From a virus, in IMG/VR virus record IMGVR_UViG_3300037961_000829, positions 1 to 27,052 of that record: a stretch of DNA of 27,052 nt. One strand, written 5' to 3'. Position numbers and translations under genes: made by a program. The notes beneath the pieces are model-generated. The model saw nothing but the letters and a program-made list of their open reading frames with translations, was not told where the DNA came from and made no database searches. Positions 16,946-20,681 of this stretch are shown in pieces (the first letter of the stretch is position 1; the number at the start of each line of letters is the position of its first letter).

Positions 16946-16952
16946 ATCCTAT

Positions 16953-16981
16953 ATTATACACCTATATTATAAGTTTGTCAA
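16953..16981 (-). promoter_or_regulatory. Perfect sigma70 promoter driving the terminase/virion operon
   Basis: On the minus strand, TTGACA (plus coordinates 16976-16981), a 17-nt spacer and TATAAT (16953-16958) match consensus exactly. The expected start is about 16946, next to the terS ATG (16945). A second, overlapping option uses TATAAT at 16966-16971 with TTTAGA at 16989-16994, also 17 nt apart, which would give a leader of about 14 nt with AGGAT. The two -10 boxes sit in a tandem 11-nt repeat TATAATATAGG. Confidence 0.85.
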
Positions 16982-17010
16982 GTCTTATTCTAAAATAATA
17001 TAAAGAAAAC

Positions 17011-17039
17011 TTGACAAATTGCTAAATTAGATGTATAAT
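17011..17039 (+). promoter_or_regulatory. Perfect sigma70 promoter driving the early genes
   Basis: TTGACA (17011-17016), 17-nt spacer, TATAAT (17034-17039): exact consensus. Predicted start about 17046, giving a leader of about 590 nt before the first early gene. Its spacer resembles that of the divergent promoter, and the two -35 boxes form a 10-bp inverted repeat, TTTGTCAAGT (16974-16983) and ACTTGACAAA (17009-17018). Host RNA polymerase should recognise it at once after infection. Confidence 0.9.
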
Positions 17040-17051
17040 AGATATTAGTGT

Positions 17052-17218
17052 CCCCCCCGTTATATAGTTATATCACTCATCCTACCTTATCTGTCTCCAA
17101 CCCCTCCCCTTTGAAGCACTTTAAAGTCTGCGACTCAATCTGGTTTACAATTGATTTTGGCTCAAAATGTATAAGATTTAATATATATAGGGGGGGAGGG
17201 GGGTGGCAACCTGCCCCC
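17052..17218 (+). repeat. C7 and G7/G6 homopolymer tracts with GC hairpin in the leader
   Basis: C7 at 17052-17058, a CCCCTCCCC stretch at about 17101-17109, and G7-A-G6 at 17190-17203. The last G tract can pair with CCCCC at 17214-17218 around a small internal loop and a GG/CC pair (17205-17206 with 17210-17211), a very stable hairpin for this AT-rich DNA. The G-rich strand could also fold as a G-quadruplex. No gene in this stretch is credible. Confidence 0.6.
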
Positions 17219-17220
17219 AT

Positions 17221-17524
17221 AACTTTAAAGACTCTAAAGAGTCTTAAAAGTTCTATAAATTTATTAGACTTTTAGTCTAATAAATTACACACACACGCTT
17301 TGAAGACTTTTAAAGTCTTCGGAGACTTCAAAGCTGTAAACCTAGTTTACAGTTTGAGAGATTTTTAAGTCTTTAAAGAAACTTTTAGTTTCTTTAATTT
17401 TTCCTTATAAGTCTCATAGACTTATAAGAATTTTAATCGTAGATTAAATAGGGCTAGGAAGCTTCAAAAACTTCCAAATTCAAAAAGGTTTTAAAGTTTC
17501 TAAAAGAAACTTTAAAACCTTTTT
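17221..17524 (+). other. Array of perfect stem-loops in the early leader
   Basis: Consecutive hairpins in plus-strand RNA: 17221-17252 (14-nt arms, one mismatch); 17258-17286 (12 bp, loop TTTTA); 17297-17334 (two competing folds); 17335-17351 (7 bp); 17373-17397 (10 bp, loop TTTTA); 17404-17428 (10 bp); 17432-17448 (7 bp); 17482-17524 (19 bp, loop TAAAA). All except the first are perfect Watson-Crick stems with 1-5 nt loops. Arms share motifs such as GACTT/AAGTC and GTTTC/GAAAC but are not simple copies. No start codon or reading frame explains them. Confidence 0.85.
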
Positions 17525-17532
17525 GGGCTAGG
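17451..17532 (+). repeat. GGGCTAGG direct repeats framing the 19-bp hairpin
   Basis: GGGCTAGG occurs at 17451-17458 and 17525-17532. Between them lie a small GGAAG/CTTCC hairpin (17457-17475) and the 19-bp stem at 17482-17524. The framing looks like an insertion or protein-binding unit. Confidence 0.5.
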
Positions 17533-17634
17533 TATTCTCTCTTGAATTATGTGAAAATGATAAAAAAACTAATAAGACCTAAAGGGATTATTAGTTTTTT
17601 TATCTTTATTTTCACAATTCAAGGAGAATACCTA
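17529..17634 (+). promoter_or_regulatory. 43-bp stem-loop burying the ribosome site of the first early gene
   Basis: 17530-17575 pairs with 17588-17633: 43 Watson-Crick pairs interrupted only by bulges of 1, 2 and 3 nt, with a 12-nt loop (17576-17587). The SD AAGGAG (17621-17626) is wholly inside the stem, and T17529 can even pair with the A of the ATG. Translation should be blocked unless the stem is cut (for example by RNase III), opened, or bypassed co-transcriptionally. Confidence 0.88.
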
Positions 17635-18035
17635 TGGCTGATTTTTCAAACATCGACTCAAATCGAATTGCTTCGAAGAAGCAAATCTGGGCTGTAGCAA
17701 ATAGATTTGCTACTTTGACAGCTTCTGACAAATCTGAAAGATTTGGCAAAGTGAAAGTTTTCAACGCAATTTTAAACTCTTTACATGGTAAAGAGTGTAA
17801 ATTGACTCATGGAGACATTCAAAAGTATTTTGAATGTGAAGTTGTGCCAAAAGAAATTTTGGCAAGAGTTCAAAAGCCTTCAAAGAAGGCTTCAAAAGCT
17901 AAAAAGGTTTCTTCGAAACCTGTTGCCAAGAAAACTGTAGCAAAGAAGGTTTCAAAGAAACCTACTTTGACAAATCGAGTAGACTCTTTAGAGTCTAAAC
18001 TTGATCAAATCTTAGAAGCTTTAGCTTCTAAGTAA
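17634..18035 (+). CDS. First early gene: basic protein from a hairpin-dense mRNA
   Basis: 133 aa, family not recognised. Residues 1-80 look globular and helical (ASKKQIWAVANRFATLTASD; KVFNAILNSLHGKECKLTHG). Residues about 82-112 are Lys/Ala/Ser-rich like a histone H1 tail (SKKASKAKKVSSKPVAKKT). The last 20 form a coiled coil (VDSLESKLDQILEALASK). The basic tail suggests nucleic-acid binding, and the coiled coil suggests oligomers. Good SD AAGGAG, but locked in a long stem. First gene after the strong early promoter and followed by its own terminator, so it is made earliest and as an almost separate transcript. The coding sequence holds 11 perfect hairpins, which no other gene here does. Host takeover or RNA binding is inference. 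Confidence 0.85.
   Translation: MADFSNIDSNRIASKKQIWAVANRFATLTASDKSERFGKVKVFNAILNSLHGKECKLTHGDIQKYFECEVVPKEILARVQKPSKKASKAKKVSSKPVAKKTVAKKVSKKPTLTNRVDSLESKLDQILEALASK
17668..18032 (+). other. Eleven perfect hairpins inside the first early coding sequence
   Basis: Non-overlapping stems (arm length): 17668-17684 (7), 17694-17713 (9), 17729-17745 (7), 17776-17796 (9), 17815-17837 (10), 17845-17864 (8), 17874-17892 (8), 17905-17921 (7), 17947-17963 (7, extendable past one A-A mismatch to 17941-17969), 17980-17997 (8), 18011-18032 (10). Loops are 2-4 nt. Together 180 of 402 coding bases are in perfect stems. Loops fall in different codon phases, so codon repeats do not cause them. Confidence 0.88.
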
Positions 18036-18040
18036 CCTTC

Positions 18041-18090
18041 AAAGCCTAGTAGATATTTATTATCTACTAGGCTTTTTTATTTTTTTTTAT
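18041..18090 (+). terminator. Strong terminator after first early gene
   Basis: Perfect 15-bp stem, arms 18041-18055 and 18061-18075 (core GCCTAGTAGATA), loop TTTAT, followed by TTTATTTTTTTTTATT. It starts 5 nt after the stop codon and should end most transcripts, isolating the first gene from those downstream. Confidence 0.92.
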
Positions 18091-18722: not shown

Positions 18723-18742
18723 AATAATAATAATAATAATAA
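18723..18742 (+). repeat. AAT trinucleotide repeat
   Basis: About six tandem AAT units directly after the 59-aa gene, in a non-coding, very AT-rich gap. A simple repeat, prone to slippage; no function evident. Confidence 0.6.
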
Positions 18743-18756
18743 ATAATTAATATATT

Positions 18757-18808
18757 TTAATTAATTTTTAAAACACATTCACTTGTGAATGTTTTAAAAA
18801 TTAATTAA
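18757..18808 (+). repeat. Hairpin element, copy 1
   Basis: 24-bp stem with a 2-nt bulge and TT loop (arms 18757-18782 and 18785-18808). Its central 36 nt (18765-18800, core CATTCAC-TT-GTGAATG) are identical to copy 2 at 20633-20668. Outer stem here is TTAATTAA-type. No U-tract follows, so it is not an ordinary terminator. Confidence 0.85.
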
Positions 18809-20384: not shown

Positions 20385-20611
20385 AAACATATATCCATGT
20401 AAATCAACACGTTATTAAATCTAATTTAAAGAATGGTGAAAACAAACCTGCGATTACAGTAAAGACAAGTAAATCAAATACTTACTGTCATAAAGCTATC
20501 GTCAAGGGTGAGGTAGAGGTTATACAATCTACTACTGACAAACCTATATTATCTTGTGGTGCTAGAATAGTTATGGTAACACATGATGAAGTTGAAACAA
20601 TTACATATTAA
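20381..20611 (+). CDS. Small conserved-type protein with CGAR motif
   Basis: 76 aa. It begins MKTYIHVNQHVIKSNLKNG and contains AITVKTSKSNTYCHKAIVKG, then a KPILSCGARIVMVTHDEVET segment. The order HVNQHVI ... P...VKT...N.Y.H...I.G ... P.SCGARV is one I recall from a widespread small family in bacteria and phages without known function. Starts by ATGA overlap with the previous gene. It ends just before the second hairpin element. Confidence 0.72.
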   Translation: MKTYIHVNQHVIKSNLKNGENKPAITVKTSKSNTYCHKAIVKGEVEVIQSTTDKPILSCGARIVMVTHDEVETITY

Positions 20612-20618
20612 TTATTAA

Positions 20619-20681
20619 ATACCTTATAAAAGTTTTTAAAACACATTCACTTGTGAATGTTTTAAAAACTTAATAAGGTAT
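20619..20681 (+). repeat. Hairpin element, copy 2
   Basis: Stem of about 28 bp (arms 20619-20650 and 20653-20681, TT loop) with small bulges. The 36-nt centre (20633-20668) is identical to copy 1, but the outer arms are different sequence (ATACCTTA with TAAGGTAT) and still complementary. This is covariation between copies, evidence that folding matters. Confidence 0.88.

Follow-up and report, generated by a model that had tools for sequence, protein, structure and literature searches.

A conserved chain of perfect hairpins and a Shine-Dalgarno-hiding stem in the first early transcript of uncultured phages

The leader of the phage lambda N gene carries an RNase III stem just upstream of N. The locus described here shares with it a first early phage gene, a small basic protein and a large stem by the ribosome-binding site, but here the Shine-Dalgarno sequence (SD) usually lies within the stem and a long leader array continues into the gene; moreover, no boxA or boxB was identified and the protein is unrelated to N in the searches made. 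Early mRNA of phage T7 is also processed by RNase III (genes 0.3 and 1.1/1.2), at stems that separate cistrons. Both T7 and our locus have strong stems near ribosome sites in early phage mRNA, whereas T7 has neither a transcript-wide array nor an SD buried in a 30-46-bp duplex. In the E. coli adhE leader, as in the mechanism proposed below, the ribosome site is shut by a leader structure until RNase III opens it (Aristarkhov 1996, as listed in PMC4191395), yet this is a cellular gene with one structure and no array in leader or coding sequence. We found no description of such hairpin arrays in the open-access literature, which does not prove their absence, and in a paper on HMO-2011-type phages (PMC9038755) a word search showed that neither promoters nor terminators nor non-coding elements are mentioned. 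The hairpin-chain early transcript with its SD-hiding stem is a conserved, previously undescribed structure, found through structure where sequence similarity is nearly absent, and it points to a layer of control over the first early gene of a common uncultured ocean phage group.

The window analysed here is the first 27,052 nucleotides (positions 1 to 27,052) of the 41,611-base record IMGVR_UViG_3300037961_000829. Its minus strand carries the terminase and structural genes, its plus strand the early genes; the rest of the record encodes a DNA polymerase, a ribonucleotide reductase and further replication genes, and on inspection of its larger open reading frames no RNA polymerase was seen. 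The large terminase subunit is 62-64% identical to those of Pelagibacter phages HTVC115P, HTVC103P and HTVC104P; with HMO-2011 the identity is about 50%. Judged from sequence, the phage belongs to an uncultured marine group related to SAR11 phages.

A perfect sigma-70 promoter (TTGACA-17-TATAAT, 12/12 matches) at 17011-17039 on the plus strand serves the first early gene, placing the inferred transcription start at about 17047 and giving a leader of about 587 nt. A divergent perfect promoter (16953-16981, minus strand, 12/12) points toward the terminase and structural genes. In 40 family loci the plus promoter scores 12/12 in most and 11/12 otherwise, the minus promoter scores 11-12/12, and untranslated leaders measure 519-1012 nt. 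The transcription unit ends at an intrinsic terminator (18041-18075, plus strand; a 15-bp stem followed by a T-rich tail), which follows the gene directly and clearly in the window and in L001, L060, L069, L039, L064 and L081; the scan used did not find one in most other family loci. The divergent promoters themselves form an inverted repeat (16952-17040) whose 38-nt arms are 79% complementary, and family loci have the divergent pair too. Just past the inferred start is a run of seven C (17052-17058), a feature also seen after the start in the relatives' alignments, and 130 nt beyond it stands a G-rich run, GGGGGGGAGGGGGGTGG (17190-17206). The stretch CTTTAAAGTCTGCGACTCAATCTGGTTTACA (17119-17149) resembles the leader block CTTTAAAGCTGCGGCACTATCTGGTTTACA of L037, L027, L047 and L051, an instance of conservation outside the hairpins.

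The leader ends in a cassette of two hairpins. Hairpin 1 (17481-17525, plus strand) has a 21-bp perfect stem and a 3-nt loop, its counterparts in relatives being 15-21 bp long, and hairpin 2 (17529-17634, plus strand) is the long stem that buries the SD. Its two arms of 46 nt each (17530-17575 and 17588-17633) form 43 pairs with bulges of 1 and 2 nt on the left and 3 nt on the right, and the SD AAGGAG (17621-17626, plus strand) lies wholly within the right arm; the original prediction had described both features correctly. The minimum free energy fold adds U17529-A17634 and two apical-loop pairs, giving 46 pairs in total, at -52.5 kcal/mol (z -13.6), a value that none of 200 dinucleotide shuffles reached (mean -15.1, sd 2.75). 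The SD has a predicted probability of being unpaired of 0.001 in the full leader and of 0.55 if the RNA starts at 17576, with the left arm removed, and opening 17617-17639 at 37 C is predicted to cost 24.4 kcal/mol, as against 3.3-7.7 at seven other genes of the window. An upstream partner arm is thus predicted to sequester the SD in the manner of an adhE-like, RNase III-activated leader.

A transcript starting inside the stem would free the SD, an outcome that the earlier reading had named as its refutation. Such a start is without sequence support, because no sigma-70-like site was found on the plus strand from about 17100 to 17634 and the 12/12 match at 17011-17039 is the best promoter; a promoter within or after the stem was accordingly rejected. 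A leader peptide translated across the stem (open reading frame 17542-17697) was set aside, since by eye the relatives carry stop codons there.

The cassette recurs in relatives, usually as two hairpins; in many of them the first hairpin keeps its apical sequence, which is CTATAAAAG in several. Scoring 58 distinct upstream regions for an SD-covering stem of 20 bp or more gave 19; because L045 has a different fold and was discounted, and L170, L126 and L169 look equivalent by inspection, we give the total as about 20. In these distinct viral contigs a stem of 27-46 bp covers the SD although their sequences differ, and in most the end of its right arm falls at -4, leaving exactly 3 nt before the AUG. 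RNAalifold applied to 14 relatives gave 29 pairs, 18 of them with double (compensatory) changes. Doubly changed cells numbered 65, against 20 +/- 3.7 after shuffling, and the covariation score was 0.431, against 0.18 for shuffles (0/500) and 0.075-0.149 when the structure was slid. Paired cells made up 93.8%, a figure favoured by the derivation of the structure from the same alignment, so that the doubly changed cells are the better measure. The stem sequence of the window is too divergent to be placed in this alignment, and it is therefore assigned to the cassette by its position, its architecture and the gene that it shares with the relatives.

Occlusion of the SD, the core of the original prediction, is accordingly supported as a real and selected feature, recurring in about 20 viral contigs with pairs that covary, but it is not the whole story. 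Seven relatives (L102-L106, L138 and L157) have a long stem that ends shortly before the SD and leaves it free; occlusion is therefore common rather than universal, and the stem is not kept only for SD closure. In L060, L069, L040, L056, L064, L068 and L086 the SD sits instead in the loop of a small hairpin, which differs between L060 and L069 by a compensatory change (CAAATCggaGATTTG vs CAATTCggaGAATTG). Such natural variants, with the SD in a stem, in a loop or free, and with or without hairpins in the coding sequence, make the mechanism testable by comparison.

The long stem is also the last of nine leader hairpins, and hairpins run on through the coding sequence to the terminator, which the earlier description had missed. 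From shortly past its start to its terminator, coding sequence included, the first early transcript is a chain of perfect hairpins. Counting perfect stems of 7 bp or longer that close a loop of 3-5 nt, we found 20 hairpins in 17047-18085, whereas 500 Markov trials gave 0.61 on average and never more than 4; the spacing of the 20 is roughly regular (median 33.5 nt), and other 500-base bins of the window mostly hold zero or one. Seven perfect hairpins with 7-13-bp stems and 3-4-nt loops, their centres about 34 nt apart, make up the leader array proper (17228-17448, plus strand), and eleven lie within the coding sequence (17668-18032, plus strand). The octamer GGGCTAGG occurs twice in the leader (17451-17458 and 17525-17532), its second copy entering the left arm of the long stem, and also in the leaders of L060 and L069.

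Synonymous-codon shuffling left 2.05 +/- 1.35 hairpins of at least 6 bp in the coding sequence, against 11 observed, and the same test on seven control genes showed no enrichment (z -1.3 to 1.5); together these results rule out chance hairpins due to low-complexity coding sequence. Between the window and the near-identical contig L001, 0 of 388 stem bases changed, against 7 of 70 loop bases (p 1.5e-6). It is unusual for a coding sequence to be so strongly selected to form regular perfect hairpins. Pooling 25 nonredundant loci and counting perfect hairpins with stems of 7 bp or longer, we found none in the 14,750 nt upstream of the promoter region. The leaders (12,586 nt) hold 132, the coding sequences (11,475 nt) 54 and the stretches that follow the gene (17,721 nt) 22. 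Enrichment in the coding sequence exceeded z 3 in 32 of 68 family genes and is therefore common, not universal; several relatives with a closed SD carry no hairpins in the gene at all. A known RNA family was rejected, since neither the window nor the leaders from 20 relatives gave a match at the gathering score of any family of Rfam release 15, and sub-threshold matches were mostly microRNA precursors with a similar long-hairpin shape.

The gene itself (17634-18035, plus strand) encodes 133 aa. A terminase search yielded 80 loci, of which about 40 carry homologues; searching with a profile brought the number of relatives in viral contigs to 104, and bacterial genomes gave none at the sensitivity used. 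Among the loci that include the terminase region, the array is present in clear family members and lacking in those without a family match. Neither gene nor array was seen in the stretches examined of HTVC115P, HTVC103P, HTVC033P, CRP-1 and HMO-2011; those of HMO-2011 and CRP-1 adjoin the terminase and possibly do not reach their early junction. AlphaFold2, run on 32 family members, predicts a helical N-terminal domain of four short helices (residues 15-79, pLDDT near 90), which a disordered K-rich linker connects to a C-terminal helix. No PHROG or Pfam model covers the family and Foldseek gave no significant match in PDB or BFVD, so that no known family or fold is convincing; by the same searches, no relatedness to N or other antiterminators was seen. 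The gene belongs to a phage family not previously described, with more than 100 viral relatives. Lambda-like antitermination was not adopted as a general explanation, since the scan used found a terminator directly following the gene in only some of the family loci. L069 (2958-3218, minus strand) and L060 (248-508, minus strand) encode a second copy of the N-terminal domain further downstream, 87 aa long and without the K-rich tail, whose coding sequence has no hairpins.

How might such a transcript work? It seems likely that the hairpins act at the RNA level, as their confinement to the promoter-to-terminator unit and their register with the start codon suggest. The reading we favour, tentatively and at somewhat less than an even chance, is that the long stem is a processing switch in which RNase III-type cleavage frees the SD. 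In the full-length early RNA, the final long hairpin would hold the SD of the first early gene closed; the long duplex would be cut endonucleolytically by host RNase III or an enzyme of like preference; and with the left arm then lost, the SD would be freed, translation proceeding only from processed RNA. Long stems with few bulges are typical RNase III substrates. The duplex, at 43-46 bp in the window and 27-46 bp in about 20 relatives, is long enough for RNase III, which needs about two helical turns. A precedent is adhE mRNA, in which RNase III cleavage is required for translation (Aristarkhov 1996, as listed in PMC4191395). Against a processing switch, the lower 10-20 pairs could retain the SD after a cut until the left arm decays, the phage record has no RNase III gene of its own, and the mismatches in the stems show no RNA-type preference. 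In a first, smaller set we counted 12 G-T against 4 A-C mismatches, but the stricter nonredundant set of 41 loci gave 6 of each, and a G-U bias is therefore not used as proof of selection on RNA.

An alternative that we consider unlikely is that the 133-aa protein uses a coiled coil for multivalent binding to the hairpins of the RNA that encodes it, the protein level setting whether the long stem stays closed and the array serving as scaffold or operator. The co-occurrence of gene and array, both missing in cultured relatives, is consistent with such autogenous control or RNA-protein assembly, as are the confident helical domain with its disordered K-rich linker and C-terminal helix, the roughly regular hairpin spacing and the apical sequence of hairpin 1 shared by several relatives. 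Yet no fold or family match backs RNA binding, stem sequences differ widely between relatives, and DNA binding would suit basic linkers equally well. By a bolder and similarly doubtful extension, the whole first early unit may be a dedicated structured RNA, its coding sequence shaped into hairpins by synonymous choice, that forms a specific particle with the encoded protein. If true, a combined mRNA and scaffold would control early expression in abundant marine phages, and it would have no described counterpart.

Less probable again is that the hairpins keep Rho and RNase E off a long untranslated leader and a late-translated gene, with SD closure tolerated or a minor by-product. Long untranslated leaders in all family loci, the limitation of the array to the transcript and the enrichment of hairpins in about half of the 68 family genes would all fit a protective role, but it leaves unexplained the exact end of the stem at -4 in most SD-covering relatives, and several relatives with a closed SD have no coding hairpins.

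Improbable, too, is a DNA-level element, in which the inverted repeats act as cruciforms or single-strand hairpins in replication, packaging or protein binding, or arise from template switching between arms: the stems are almost purely Watson-Crick, with G-T no commoner than A-C mismatches, and the region is a divergent junction where GC skew changes sign, but hairpins are absent upstream of the promoter and fewer after the gene, the long stem stays in register with the start codon, the SD is placed in stem or loop, and a mutational origin alone would not limit hairpins to this transcription unit. Release confined to freshly made RNA, suggested in the original prediction beside cleavage, is unlikely because the partner arm is transcribed before the SD.

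Other repeats in the window are unrelated to the hairpin unit. A 70-nt element in the early region (18739-18808 and 20607-20676) has 79% identity between its copies, each of which lies between early genes and contains the palindrome-like AAAACACATTCACTTGTGAATGTTTT, possibly an operator or processing site. The early region of one relative carries a tRNA gene (L040, 2536-2618, minus strand; Rfam RF00005, 59 bits).
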